From: Pseudomonas sp. 21 | GTDB taxonomy: Bacteria; Pseudomonadota; Gammaproteobacteria; Pseudomonadales; Pseudomonadaceae | Direction of reading: 5' to 3' | Length of the DNA stretch: 64,000 nt | NCBI RefSeq assembly: GCF_000955805.1 | Contig: NZ_JYOA01000004.1 | Span: forward strand, 62,001-126,000 | Shown here: positions 12,531-17,788 of the stretch, piece by piece | Layout: every line of letters starts with the position of its first letter | Numbering within the stretch: the first letter of the stretch is position 1 | Notes under the pieces: generated by a model | Told to the model about the DNA's origin: nothing | The model's database searches: none | Seen by the model: only the letters and a program-made list of their open reading frames with translations | Position numbers and translations under genes: made by a program

Positions 12531-12800
12531 GGCCGGATGATAGCCATCGACATGCCCCCGGAACAATCGGAAGGATTAATCCTTCGGTGATCTCCTTCTC
12601 ATCCCCGAGGCCCAACCAAAGACGGGAACTGCACCCGCCCGATTTCGCCCTGCCGGCCGCAACCCGCGCCGCCAGCGGCTCCCCGCTCCGGTAACACTCC
12701 AGGCCCGCGACGCACGCATGGCGCAACGGCATCCGATGGGTCAGCATCGATCGTGACATCGCCCGATGTAACGATAACAACAACCAGCCTGGAGAAAGTC
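12531..12800. promoter_or_regulatory. Divergent control region with two palindromes
   Basis: The gap between the MerR gene and the M24 operon carries a perfect 16-bp palindrome GAAGGATTAATCCTTC at 12570-12585, 40 bp before the MerR start. A second palindrome, ACATCG-CC-CGATGT, lies at 12756-12769, about 30 bp before the M24 start. Dyads in these positions fit MerR-type operators, which lie within the promoter spacer. Assignment of either dyad to the MerR protein is inference. Confidence 0.5.
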
Positions 12801-13685
12801 ATGTCCCAAGGCGCCTGGGTGCCCACCCCCGAAGACCTGCGGCACTTCCGCGAGATTCAGCAACTGGCCTACCGCTGCTGCGAAACCATTGCCGGCGAAC
12901 TGCGCCCGGGCATCAGCGAGCGCGAGACCGCCGCGCTGATGAAGACCTGGCTGCTCGATCACGGCGTGCGCGACTGGTTCCACCAGCCCTTCGCCTGGTT
13001 CGGCAGCCGCACCTCGTTCAAGGGCTTCGACGGCCTGCGCCACCTGGGCGGCTTCAACCTGGCCTTCTACCCCGGCAAGCAGCGCCTGGAGGAAGGCATG
13101 CCCTTCATCCTCGATTGCGCGCCGACCCTGGGCGCCTACACGGCCGACGTCGGCTACTCCGGCGCACTGGGCCACAACCTGCTGGTGGAGCGCCTGATGG
13201 ACGACCTGCTGGCACACCGCAACCTGATCGTCGAACAAGTGCGCCAGCGCCTGCCGCTGGCCCAGGTCAGCCAGTCGGTGGACCGCCTCTGCCAGCGCCA
13301 GGGCACCCTGCCGCGGCACAAGGCCTACCCCTTCGAAGTGCTGGCGCACCGCGTGGAAAAACTCGGCGCGCGCAACACCGGCCCGTCGGTGGCGCGCTTT
13401 GGCGTGCGCAACATCGCCACCCTGATGAAGAACGCCCTGATCACCGGCCGCCGCGAGGGCTGGTCGCCGCTGTGGTCGAGCAATGATCGTTCGCAGCACG
13501 CACCGACGCCGGGCCTCTGGGCTGTCGAGCCGCACCTGGGCCTGCGCGGCGTGGGCGCCAAGTTCGAAGAGCTGCTGGTGGTCACCGAGGACGACGCCTA
13601 CTGGCTGGACGACGACCTGCCCCACGTACGCCGCTGGACCGAACGCGGCCTGATCAGCGCCCCGGCGCGGCGGGAGGTGGCATGA
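12801..13685 (+). CDS. M24-family metallopeptidase-like protein
   Basis: A 294-residue pita-bread fold protein of the M24 family (methionine aminopeptidase, creatinase, proline dipeptidase). All five dinuclear-metal ligands expected for the family can be aligned: D105 (FILDCAP), D116 (YTADVGY), H183 (VLAHRV), E243 (WAVEPH) and E256 (AKFEEL). It should therefore be catalytically competent, probably with manganese, cobalt or iron. The ATG at 12801 has GGAG nine bases upstream; an in-frame ATG further upstream at 12753 would overlap the operator palindrome. Its stop overlaps the next start (ATGA), so it is translationally coupled to the hydrolase-SDR fusion. The natural substrate is unknown; the operon context suggests a small molecule rather than a peptide. 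Confidence 0.82.
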   Translation: MSQGAWVPTPEDLRHFREIQQLAYRCCETIAGELRPGISERETAALMKTWLLDHGVRDWFHQPFAWFGSRTSFKGFDGLRHLGGFNLAFYPGKQRLEEGMPFILDCAPTLGAYTADVGYSGALGHNLLVERLMDDLLAHRNLIVEQVRQRLPLAQVSQSVDRLCQRQGTLPRHKAYPFEVLAHRVEKLGARNTGPSVARFGVRNIATLMKNALITGRREGWSPLWSSNDRSQHAPTPGLWAVEPHLGLRGVGAKFEELLVVTEDDAYWLDDDLPHVRRWTERGLISAPARREVA

Positions 13686-15454
13686 ACGCCATGCTGGAGA
13701 AGAGCCTGCCGGCGCCGGAACGGCTGGACGTGCAGTCCGGCAACGTACGCCTGGCCGTCTGGCGCTGGGGCGAGGCGCACCTGCCGATGGTGCTGTTCGT
13801 CCACGGCTACCCGGACAACCACGAAACCTGGCTGCCGCTGATCCGCCACCTCTCGGGGCGCTTCCAGCTGGTGGCCTACGACGTGCGCGGCGCCGGCGAA
13901 TCGGACAAGCCGCGCAAGACCCGCGACTACCGCCTGGAACTGCTCAGCCAGGACCTCAAGGCCGTGCTCGACGCCGTCAGCCCGCAGCGCGCGGTGCACC
14001 TGGTGGCGCATGACTGGGGCTCGATCCAGACCTGGGAAAGCGTCACCGACCCGCAATTGCGCGCCCGCATCGCCTCCTACACCAGCGTCTCCGGCCCCTG
14101 CCTGGACCACGTCGGTTTCTGGATGCGCGACCGCCTGCGCCGCAAGACCCCGCGCGCGCTGCTGCAGATGGCCAGCCAGCTGCTGCACTCCTGGTACATC
14201 TACTACTTCCACCTGCCGCTGCTGCCGTCGCTGTCCTGGCGCTTCGGCGCAGCCAAGGCCTGGCCGCAGTACCTGCGCAAGGTCGAAGGCATCCGCAACC
14301 CGGTGCGCAACCCGCACCAGGCCAGCGATGGCGAGCACGGCGTGAAGCTCTACCGGGCCAACTTCATCACCTCGATCTTCAAGCCGCGCAAGCGCCACAC
14401 CGAGGTGCCGGTGCAACTTATCGTGCCGACCCGCGACCGCTACGTCGGCCAGCAACTGTTCCAGCAGCTTTCGCTGTGGGCGCCGCGCCTGTGGCGCCGC
14501 GATGTCACTGCCGGACACTGGCAACTGCTCGCCGAACCGGCCCGGCTGGGCAAGTGGATCGACGAATTCGTCAGCCACATCGAGGGCGGCGAAGCCACCC
14601 CGGAACTGCAGCGCGCGGCGCTGAAACCCGGCGCCGGCCCCTTCGCCGGCAAGCTGGTGGTGGTCACCGGCGCGGGCGGCGGCATCGGTCGCTCAACCCT
14701 GCTCAGCTTCGCCGAACGCGGCGCCAGCGTGCTGGCCGCGGACATCGACCCGGCCGCCGCCGAACGTAGTGCCGAGCTGGCCCGTGCGGTCGGCGCCACG
14801 GCTCACAGCTATTGCGTGGATGTGGGCGACAGCGCCGCCATGGAGCGCTTCGCGCAGTGGGTGAAGAGCAGCCTCGGCGTACCCGACGTGGTGGTCAGCA
14901 ATGCCGGCATCGGCATGGCCGGGCCGATGCTCAAGACCACCCCGGAGGAATGGGAACGCCTGCTGCGCATCAACCTGTGGAGCGTGATCGACGGTTGCCG
15001 GTTGTTCGGCAAGCAGATGGTCGAGGCCGGCAAGCCGGGGCACCTGGTCAACGTCGCCTCCGGCGTGGCCTTTGCGCCGTCACGCAACTACCCGGCCTAC
15101 GCCACCAGCAAGGCTGCGGTGCTGATGCTCAGCGAGTGCCTGCGCGCCGAACTGGCGGGCCATGGCATCGGCGTCAGCGCGGCGTGCCCGGGCTTCGTCG
15201 ACACCGGCATCGTCCAGGCCACGCGCTTCGCCGGCCTGGATGACGAACAACAGGCGAAACACCGCGCCAAGGTGCAGCGCTTCTACCGTCGGCGCCGGCT
15301 CAGCCCGGACACCGTCGGCGAACGCATCACCCGCGCGGTGGAACGCAACCAGCCGGTGGTGAAAGTCGGCAGCGAAGTGCACCTGGGCGCCCTGCAATGG
15401 CGCTTCATGCCCTGGCTGTCGCGCCTGTTCGCCCGCCTCAATCTCACTGCCTGA
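13682..15454 (+). CDS. Alpha/beta hydrolase - short-chain dehydrogenase fusion (EphD-like)
   Basis: The 590-residue protein fuses two enzymes. Residues about 15-300 are an alpha/beta hydrolase with the oxyanion motif HGYPD (41-45) and a nucleophile elbow AHDWGS with aspartate 111 instead of serine. Asp is the epoxide-hydrolase / haloalkane-dehalogenase type nucleophile. A matching catalytic histidine is H279 (TAGHWQ). Residues about 322-560 are a classical SDR: the nucleotide motif TGAGGGIG near 328-335, NAGIG, and the active-site YATSK near residue 473. The same two-domain layout and length are known from mycobacterial EphD, an epoxide hydrolase-SDR acting on lipids. Here it is co-translated with the M24 gene and followed after 8 bp by a ferritin-like gene. 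An epoxide or hydroxy-lipid substrate is inferred. Confidence 0.85.
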   Translation: MNAMLEKSLPAPERLDVQSGNVRLAVWRWGEAHLPMVLFVHGYPDNHETWLPLIRHLSGRFQLVAYDVRGAGESDKPRKTRDYRLELLSQDLKAVLDAVSPQRAVHLVAHDWGSIQTWESVTDPQLRARIASYTSVSGPCLDHVGFWMRDRLRRKTPRALLQMASQLLHSWYIYYFHLPLLPSLSWRFGAAKAWPQYLRKVEGIRNPVRNPHQASDGEHGVKLYRANFITSIFKPRKRHTEVPVQLIVPTRDRYVGQQLFQQLSLWAPRLWRRDVTAGHWQLLAEPARLGKWIDEFVSHIEGGEATPELQRAALKPGAGPFAGKLVVVTGAGGGIGRSTLLSFAERGASVLAADIDPAAAERSAELARAVGATAHSYCVDVGDSAAMERFAQWVKSSLGVPDVVVSNAGIGMAGPMLKTTPEEWERLLRINLWSVIDGCRLFGKQMVEAGKPGHLVNVASGVAFAPSRNYPAYATSKAAVLMLSECLRAELAGHGIGVSAACPGFVDTGIVQATRFAGLDDEQQAKHRAKVQRFYRRRRLSPDTVGERITRAVERNQPVVKVGSEVHLGALQWRFMPWLSRLFARLNLTA

Positions 15455-15462
15455 GAACTGCC

Positions 15463-16353
15463 ATGAACGATCATCATCACAAGCTGGTGCAACGCAAGGT
15501 GCAGTTCGACTACACCGACTCGCCGCTGCACTGGATTCCCGGCGAGCCCGAGGCGTCCCACGCGATCAACGTCATCCACATGATGCTGCCGGCGGGCGAG
15601 TTGTGGTTCTGCCGGCTGTACAACAAGGCGCTGCCCTTCGTGAAGGAAGGCCGGCTGCGCGAGGACGTGCAGGGCTTCATCCGCCAGGAAGCCATGCACG
15701 CCCGCGCCCACTCGGGTGCCCTGGAGCGCTACCTGAGTCACCACGGCATCGACTCCACGCGCTATCTGAAGGTCATGGACTACCTGTTCGAGCAACTGCT
15801 CAGCGACACGCCGCTGGGTATCGAACTGTTCAATCGCACCCCCTGGCTCAAGCGCTGGTGGATCGGCCAGCGCTGCGCCATCGTCGCTGCGGTGGAGCAC
15901 TTCACCTGCATCCTCGGCAAATGGATTCTCGAAGCCGATGCGCTGGACCGCGCCAAGGCCGATCCGGTGCTGCTCGACCTGTTCCGCTGGCACGGCGCCG
16001 AGGAAGTGGAGCACCGCAACGTCGCCCATGACCTGCACGTGCACCTGGGCGGCACCTTCGTCAGCCGGCAGCTGTGGATGTTCGTGGTGTGGCCGCTGAT
16101 CATCTATCTGTTCGCCTTCGGCACCCGCACCCTGTCGCGACAGGACCCCACCATCGCCAAACCACGCTCCTTCGCCGCAATCTGGCGCGATGGCTCGAAG
16201 TCCGGCGTGCTGCCGAAGATCAGCTCGCTGGCCACCAGCTTCCTGCGCTACTTCAAGCCCTGGTACCACCCGGACCACGAGGCCAACACCCAGGAAGCGC
16301 TGGACTACCTGGCCCGTTCGCCGGCCGCCAGCCGGGCCGCGCGCGCCTCGTAA
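15463..16353 (+). CDS. PF10118-type predicted metal-dependent hydrolase, ferritin-like
   Basis: A 296-residue protein of the family annotated as predicted metal-dependent hydrolases (COG3687). The sequence shows a ligand set usual for diiron-carboxylate proteins: E46, E76-x-x-H79 (QEAMHA), E145 (VEHF) and E181-x-x-H184 (EEVEHR), in mostly helical sequence, with a hydrophobic segment at about 203-218 (LWMFVVWPLIIYLFAFG). This suggests a membrane-associated diiron oxygenase or oxidase rather than a hydrolase. It starts 8 bp after the EphD-like gene and is the last gene of the MerR-linked operon. Family assignment is from overall resemblance and the diiron reading is inference from the residue pattern. 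Confidence 0.78.
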   Translation: MNDHHHKLVQRKVQFDYTDSPLHWIPGEPEASHAINVIHMMLPAGELWFCRLYNKALPFVKEGRLREDVQGFIRQEAMHARAHSGALERYLSHHGIDSTRYLKVMDYLFEQLLSDTPLGIELFNRTPWLKRWWIGQRCAIVAAVEHFTCILGKWILEADALDRAKADPVLLDLFRWHGAEEVEHRNVAHDLHVHLGGTFVSRQLWMFVVWPLIIYLFAFGTRTLSRQDPTIAKPRSFAAIWRDGSKSGVLPKISSLATSFLRYFKPWYHPDHEANTQEALDYLARSPAASRAARAS

Positions 16354-16441: not shown

Positions 16442-17788
16442 ATGCCGATGGGAACCTACCCGCTTCACCCCGCCCTTCCCTCCCGCGTGGAGCGCCTGCC
16501 GGAGCAGGTGGACGTGGTCATCGCCGGCAGCGGCATCATGGGCTGTGCCACCGCCTGGCAACTCGCCGGCCAGGGCCTGAGCGTGCTGGTGCTGGACAAG
16601 GCCGGGATCGCCAGCCAGCAATCCACCCGCGCCTGGGGCTTCGTCCGCCAGCAGGCGCGCGATCCGGCGGAAGTACCGTTGATGATGGCGGCGATTCCGC
16701 TGTGGGAACGCCTGGAAGAAGAGCTGCAACTGCCGCTGGAATGGCGCCAGGGCGGCTGCCTGTACCTGGCCGAAACGCCGGAGCAGCAGCGCAAGTACGA
16801 AGACTGGCTGAAGGTCGCCGCCAACTTCGGCCTCGGCACCCGACTGCTGGGCCGCGCAGAAGTCGCACAGATGATGCCGGCGTTGAGCGATCCCGCGCTG
16901 GGCGCCCTGTATACCGCGAATGATGGCCAGGCCGAGCCGCGTCGCGTGGCGCCCGGCTATGCGCTGCGTGCCATTGAGCGTGGCGCCGTGTTCGTCGAAG
17001 GCTGCGGCGTCACCGGCATCGACCGCGCCGCCGGCGCCGTCTGCGGCGTGCAGACCGAGCGCGGCTATGTGAAAACCCGACACCTGTTGATCTGCGCGGG
17101 CGCCAGCAGTTGGCGCCTGGTGCAGAGCCTCGGCCTGGAACTGCCGCAACAGGCCGTGCGCTGTACCGTTTCGCGCACCAGCCCCGGCCCGGACGTTGGC
17201 GCGCAAAGCTTCATCGGCCACGGCATCGGCTTCCGCCAGCGTGCCGACGGGAGCATCAACCTCGCCGACGAAACCCAGGCCGACATCGACCTGAACCTCG
17301 ACTACCTGCGCGGCGCCCGGCACTACCTGCCGCACCTGCCGGAGCACCGCGCGGGATTCTCGTTCAAGCTCAACGGCGCGTTGTTCCACGACCTGCGCCA
17401 GCGCCTGCCCGGTTCGGAAAGGAGCATTAACGGCCCGGTGCTGGGCGAGCGCGATCCGCAGGTAAAGGCGAACACCGCGCGCGTCTTCACGGCACAGCAG
17501 AATCTGGCGAAGGCCTTCCCGGCACTACGCGATGTGAAAGTCGTGGAAAGCTGGGCGGGACTGATCGACGTGCTGCCCGACGGCATTCCCGTGCTCGATG
17601 CACCCGCGCAAGTGCCCGGACTGCTGATCGCCACGGGCTTCTGCGGCCACGGCTTCGCCATGGGGCCGATCGTCGGCCAACTGATGAGCCAGTGGATACA
17701 CAGGGGCGATCCCGGAATGGACCTGCACGCCTTCCGGCTGCGGCGCTTCGCCGATGGCACGGCGGGCAAGCCTTACTCGCTGTTCTGA
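16442..17788 (+). CDS. FAD-dependent oxidoreductase, DAO (glycine oxidase/sarcosine oxidase-like) family
   Basis: A 448-residue flavoprotein with an N-terminal Rossmann motif VVIAGSGIMGCATAWQLA (about residues 25-42) that binds FAD, and a C-terminal GLLIATGFCGHGFAMGP motif typical of the D-amino-acid-oxidase superfamily. The reaction is expected to be oxidation of a secondary or primary amine, with electrons going to oxygen or a quinone. The ATG at 16442 is chosen because the family N-terminus starts there and AGGGA lies upstream. The frame is open from 16190 but only antisense-like residues precede. It lies 88 bp after the ferritin-like gene and could belong to the same transcript. A pair of REP units follows. 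Confidence 0.83.
   Translation: MPMGTYPLHPALPSRVERLPEQVDVVIAGSGIMGCATAWQLAGQGLSVLVLDKAGIASQQSTRAWGFVRQQARDPAEVPLMMAAIPLWERLEEELQLPLEWRQGGCLYLAETPEQQRKYEDWLKVAANFGLGTRLLGRAEVAQMMPALSDPALGALYTANDGQAEPRRVAPGYALRAIERGAVFVEGCGVTGIDRAAGAVCGVQTERGYVKTRHLLICAGASSWRLVQSLGLELPQQAVRCTVSRTSPGPDVGAQSFIGHGIGFRQRADGSINLADETQADIDLNLDYLRGARHYLPHLPEHRAGFSFKLNGALFHDLRQRLPGSERSINGPVLGERDPQVKANTARVFTAQQNLAKAFPALRDVKVVESWAGLIDVLPDGIPVLDAPAQVPGLLIATGFCGHGFAMGPIVGQLMSQWIHRGDPGMDLHAFRLRRFADGTAGKPYSLF

Follow-up and report, generated by a model that had tools for sequence, protein, structure and literature searches.

A conserved MerR-linked operon in Pseudomonas sp. 21 combines an M24 metallohydrolase, an EphD-like epoxide hydrolase-SDR fusion and a predicted R2-like dimetal oxidase

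Two kinds of described proteins come closest to the gene set considered here. In mycobacterial EphD (the NF004514/PRK05855 type), an alpha/beta hydrolase domain is fused to a short-chain dehydrogenase/reductase (SDR), and the N-terminal domain has been reported to open 9,10-cis-epoxystearic acid (PMC7998700). Among the dimetal-carboxylate proteins, which include ribonucleotide reductase R2, R2lox has been reported to bind a fatty acid (PMC6399176) and one R2lox to act as an alkane monooxygenase (PMC10867098). Here we analyze positions 12531..16353 of a 64-kb window (the whole stretch of DNA studied, 64,000 nucleotides) from Pseudomonas sp. 21, where a MerR-family regulator gene is divergent from an operon encoding an M24 metallohydrolase, an EphD-like hydrolase-SDR fusion and a protein of the PF10118 family. 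The fusion has the same two-domain layout and length as EphD, for which M24, PF10118 and MerR partners or the palindrome discussed below are not described in those portions of the literature that the search covered. We propose that the operon is a MerR-controlled module for the oxidation of a hydrophobic compound, probably a lipid or terpenoid, to which the PF10118 protein adds oxygen, most likely giving an epoxide; we assign this proposal an even chance.

The three genes, together with the MerR gene, form a conserved unit. In the source genome, the M24 and fusion genes overlap by 4 bases, the fusion and PF10118 genes are separated by 8 bases, and all three products score far above the respective family cut-offs (Table 1). 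We searched 248 Pseudomonadaceae genomes for orthologs (E <= 1e-50 for M24, E <= 1e-70 for PF10118 and E <= 1e-120 for the hydrolase) and judged adjacency by eye from coordinates. The M24 gene (23 orthologs) adjoins the fusion and PF10118 genes in 23/23 genomes that carry it, and the PF10118 gene (37 orthologs) adjoins the hydrolase gene in 37/37; the EphD-like hydrolase has 41 orthologs, 29 of which keep the SDR part. Beyond this family, among the best 80 of 588 confirmed places, the order M24, hydrolase, SDR, PF10118 recurs in Pseudomonas, Nevskia, a Moraxellaceae metagenome-assembled genome, Burkholderia, Paraburkholderia, Ralstonia and four Streptomyces loci, and the same order is found on a Dietzia plasmid; the flanks of the Burkholderia and Streptomyces operons offered no common clue. 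Given the 23/23 and 37/37 linkage and the identical order in distant bacteria, a chance neighborhood was rejected. Linkage of otherwise unrelated genes by descent alone is hardly credible: pseudomonads with reduced sets do exist, but the order is the same in Actinomycetota and Pseudomonadota and the palindrome is common to distant loci. The reduced sets include M24 remnants of 104 residues (L111) and 84 residues (L115, where PF10118 is lost) and loci in which only the hydrolase is left (L114, L116 and L117). In a class-wide search, the M24 gene was found in 1 of 274 genomes, namely the source genome itself, and the full set is therefore rare and patchy. The first-pass annotation, made from the DNA letters alone, had described a MerR gene facing a tight three-gene set and had regarded these genes as working together, a view that scattered, unlinked genes in relatives would have undone; the survey leaves the unit intact.

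The window contains a single match to TKACAT-N6-ATGTNA, against 0.03 expected: the palindrome TGACATCGCCCGATGTAA, located upstream of the M24 gene. The stricter pattern TKACATYRNNYRATGTMA has a single site in the source genome and a single site in each of six further Pseudomonadaceae genomes, and all seven sites (7/7) are directly 5' of the M24-fusion-PF10118 operon, with 0 matches for the pattern read backwards as a control. Upstream of 23 M24 genes from other groups, the best match to the palindrome had no mismatches in 4 cases, one in 11, two in 4, three in 2 and four in 2, single-base shuffles serving as the control for this comparison. The palindrome as a marker of the operon is a new observation. 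The regulator belongs to the MerR family by its DNA-binding domain, and we infer that it binds the palindrome, which would then be the operator.

In 11 genomes, the MerR gene is not beside the M24 operon, and each of these encodes exactly one full-length match to the regulator (E <= 1e-12, 42–49% identity). In seven of the 11 (G748, G749 and G751–G755), the regulator gene is near an operon that encodes a flavin monooxygenase (FMO), an SDR and a PF10118 protein of another clade; in G758, it adjoins a PF10118 gene, in G750 the FMO operon is ~9 kb away, and in G756 and G757 neither an FMO operon nor a PF10118 gene was seen in the stretch fetched around the MerR gene. The FMO-SDR-PF10118 loci additionally contain an EphD-like hydrolase (L167, L174, L175 and L201) or another alpha/beta hydrolase (L170 and L202), whereas at L168 no alpha/beta hydrolase was seen. 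FMO, SDR and alpha/beta hydrolase co-occur with a different PF10118 clade, in operons that may resemble the mycobacterial mymA or Acinetobacter AlmA type; these include an FMO, unlike the source Pseudomonas operon. A scan of ten of the 11 genomes yielded 20 palindrome sites in nine of them (2 for the backwards-pattern control), of which 16 lie upstream of a gene belonging to the set or of an FMO-SDR-PF10118 operon, an outcome favored by the choice of genomes that carry the gene set. One of the other four is in G750 (G750:C1:713). The remaining three are in B. singularis: one near an amidase and a DUF6670 gene, one near a polyketide-cyclase-like gene and a LysR gene, and one 5' of an amidohydrolase gene. 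The first of these three is a perfect palindrome between the amidase and DUF6670 genes (L192, 863–3853). In Limnobacter (L199, 4495–7939), the palindrome is followed by genes for an SDR, a protein with a sub-cut-off match to AurF (E 1.9e-4) and an FMO. At this locus, the AurF-like protein may take the role of PF10118; a profile comparison between the two was weak (probability 1.5%, E 0.035).

The NF004514 model matches residues 16–587 of the fusion above its curated cut-off, and the likeness to EphD is drawn through this model. The residues D111, D252, H279, Y172 and Y224 are invariant in all 20 rows of the hydrolase alignment, and the epoxide hydrolase 5ng7 (E 1.5e-19) is the top PDB sequence match of the N-terminal domain. 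Sequences that contained stops or were too short had been kept out of the candidate lists. The tyrosine pair of epoxide hydrolases has been assigned a role in ring opening (PMC8244358). Judging by these residues, the epoxide-hydrolase active site of the N-terminal domain is complete, and this domain is quite probably a genuine epoxide hydrolase. The first-pass annotation had already recognized the EphD-like layout of the 590-residue fusion and the D111-H279 pair, as well as five metal ligands in the M24 protein, and all of these are confirmed. In the M24 alignment, D105, D116, H183 and E243 are invariant in 18/18 rows, as is E256 in all 17 that extend to this position (the row of L025 ends earlier); together with the PF00557 match, this places the protein in the M24 peptidase family. 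It has no NCBIfam match, and its closest PDB profile match, a methionyl aminopeptidase (E 2.4e-4), covers the first half only.

The PF10118 protein carries a conserved set of four Glu and two His residues (E46, E76, H79, E145, E181 and H184), invariant in 48/48 rows, including source-genome paralogs at 27% identity. The ligand spacing is 30-3-66-36-3; similar spacings are found in soluble methane monooxygenase and R2lox. In the AlphaFold2 (AF2) model (pLDDT 93.8), E46 is placed on helix 29–59, E76 and H79 on helix 63–91, E145 on helix 127–157, and E181 and H184 on helix 168–194, and comparison of the model with known structures (VIA-align) gave ribonucleotide reductase R2 or R2lox in 50/50 of the matches listed. 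The diiron-type pattern suggested by the first-pass annotation thus holds as a dimetal ligand set in the four-helix core of a predicted R2-like fold. Sequence searches of the PDB gave one chance-like match with the single sequence (E 0.32) and none at E <= 10 when the family profile was used. There being no recognizable sequence relation to R2lox, PF10118 is therefore not filed as R2lox proper, and it differs from both R2lox and ribonucleotide reductase R2 also in its own gene neighbors. Weak additional Pfam matches among 46 PF10118 members are to COQ7 (14), Ferritin_2 (6) and AurF (4).

The ligands and the model together make it very probable that PF10118 is an R2-like dimetal oxidase. The Pfam and RefSeq name, metal-dependent hydrolase, might be taken at face value, but the name is all that favors this function, which we regard as most improbable given the six-ligand dimetal-carboxylate set, the R2-like model and the reductase neighbor described below; among the 5.39 million papers searched, a single one mentions PF10118 and none COG3687. 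The name is thus probably wrong, and PF10118 would be a hardly studied family of candidate oxygen-activating enzymes. PF10118 genes are present in 39 of 249 sampled Pseudomonadota genomes, in up to nine copies per genome, and if the encoded proteins are R2-like oxygenases, many annotated 'hydrolases' become candidate lipid or hydrocarbon oxygenases.

The actinobacterial neighborhoods suggest a redox partner. In 22 of 26 loci, the PF10118 gene is followed by a gene for a reductase that contains an NAD-binding and a 2Fe-2S domain, the remaining four being M24-hydrolase-SDR-PF10118 operons; the Dietzia plasmid operon consists of M24, fusion, PF10118, 2Fe-2S reductase and TetR genes. Rhodococcus fascians has a limonene-1,2-epoxide hydrolase gene (PF07858, 55.7 bits, cut-off 24) downstream of a PF10118-reductase pair; the encoded enzyme is of a type unrelated to the alpha/beta hydrolase of the fusion. 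These reductases and the R. fascians hydrolase lend indirect support to a step in which the oxygenase feeds the epoxide hydrolase. The source Pseudomonas would need an electron donor encoded at some other place in its genome. We consider it likely that PF10118 and the hydrolase act in one pathway; that PF10118 itself makes the epoxide is plausible, although we stop just short of giving it an even chance.

An alternative is that lipid epoxides or peroxides arise spontaneously or from outside and are detoxified, the hydrolase-SDR fusion clearing the epoxide and PF10118 reducing the peroxide rather than making the epoxide. Detoxification is an often proposed role of epoxide hydrolases (PMC7998700), and the hydrolase is the part longest retained as the operon decays (L114, L116 and L117); nevertheless, a 2Fe-2S reductase beside PF10118 suits oxygen activation at least equally, and the FMO among the genes marked by the palindrome speaks for catabolism, so that we rate this alternative as unlikely, if worth keeping in mind. 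Another reading, conceivable but quite unlikely, is that PF10118 works on a saturated carbon, by hydroxylation or desaturation, and that the substrate of the alpha/beta domain is an ester or some other group rather than an epoxide produced by PF10118. An R2lox has been reported to hydroxylate alkanes (PMC10867098), and other PF10118 clades occur beside FMO, SDR, lipase-like hydrolase, GMC oxidoreductase or AraC regulator genes. This route is at odds with the invariance of the five epoxide-hydrolase residues, including both ring-opening tyrosines, and with the unrelated epoxide hydrolase that takes the place of the alpha/beta domain in R. fascians.

In the scheme that we propose, PF10118, fed by a reductase, would oxygenate the substrate, the most likely product being an epoxide; the EphD-like domain would convert the epoxide to a vicinal diol and the fused SDR the diol to a hydroxyketone, and M24 could hydrolyze a product that arises later or is conjugated. 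In Burkholderiales, the FMO under the same DNA signal might insert oxygen next to the ketone, preparing chain cleavage. M24 is the gene most frequently absent where the rest of the set persists. The first-pass annotation had sketched a similar route from oxygenase through hydrolase and SDR to M24, with M24 perhaps trimming an amide or ester, and this route is supported in part: its gene unit including MerR, the full epoxide-hydrolase site and the dimetal set on an R2-like fold stand, and the oxygenase-to-hydrolase step has gained the indirect support noted above. More speculatively, and only as a tentative suggestion that may well prove wrong, PF10118 could represent a new two-component family of R2-fold oxygenases (oxidase plus 2Fe-2S reductase) that epoxidize alkenes or unsaturated lipids, with the MerR set forming an oxidative cleavage route through epoxide, diol, hydroxyketone and Baeyer-Villiger ester (via the FMO in Burkholderiales) to hydrolysis. 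A literature search for these families in combination found none, the only match concerning other di-iron enzymes. With an epoxide hydrolase of its own, a reductase (in Dietzia) and a single DNA signal, the operon would offer a compact test system for PF10118 function.

Table 1. Features of the MerR-linked locus in window coordinates.
Feature	Coordinates	Strand	Remarks
MerR-family regulator, 272 aa	11712..12530	-	PF13411 71.6 bits; divergent from operon
Palindrome TGACATCGCCCGATGTAA, likely operator	12754..12771	.	29 bases 5' of M24 start codon
M24 (pita-bread) metallohydrolase, 294 aa	12801..13685	+	PF00557 63.1 bits, cut-off 23
Hydrolase-SDR fusion (whole), 590 aa	13682..15454	+	NCBIfam NF004514 849 bits, cut-off 455
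Fusion N-terminal alpha/beta epoxide hydrolase domain, residues 1–310	13682..14611	+	PF00561 78.5 bits
Fusion C-terminal SDR domain	14651..15454	+	PF00106 160 bits, from residue 324
PF10118 protein, 296 aa, predicted R2-like dimetal-carboxylate oxidase	15463..16353	+	230.2 bits, cut-off 33.2
FAD-dependent (DAO) oxidoreductase	16442..17788		downstream of PF10118 gene

The studied interval begins in intergenic DNA, one base after the end of the MerR gene, and the three plus-strand genes are located between this divergent gene and that of the FAD-dependent oxidoreductase. The latter is also present in P. nitroreducens-like loci and beside the lone hydrolase in L114, and lies outside the wider conserved set. 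A promoter scan found no sigma-70-like promoter, and a terminator scan at the operon end found nothing. The source genome (6.3 Mb, 42 contigs, three PF10118 genes) is close to the P. nitroreducens group, its operon-encoded PF10118 protein being 98% identical to proteins of P. pseudonitroreducens and P. nitroreducens TX1.

In a tree of 112 PF10118 sequences, built by a quick method that gave a long-branch warning after removal of 10 near-identical rows from 122, a branch with a support of 100 separates the operon members, the reductase-linked proteins, the limonene-type-linked protein and the solo Acinetobacter members from the source-genome paralogs, the FMO-linked proteins and two extra tandem copies of Nevskia. 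The tandem pairs in Nevskia (L020, 1328–3087, and L021, 2887–4655) comprise one member of each of these two big clades. One source-genome paralog (L107, G000:C12:71500-82500) is encoded near an FMO, an SDR and a Crp-family regulator, without the palindrome. A 2.3-Mb genome of the same order (G585) encodes eight PF10118 proteins (loci L120–L126), some of them encoded next to AraC regulator genes or a GMC oxidoreductase gene.
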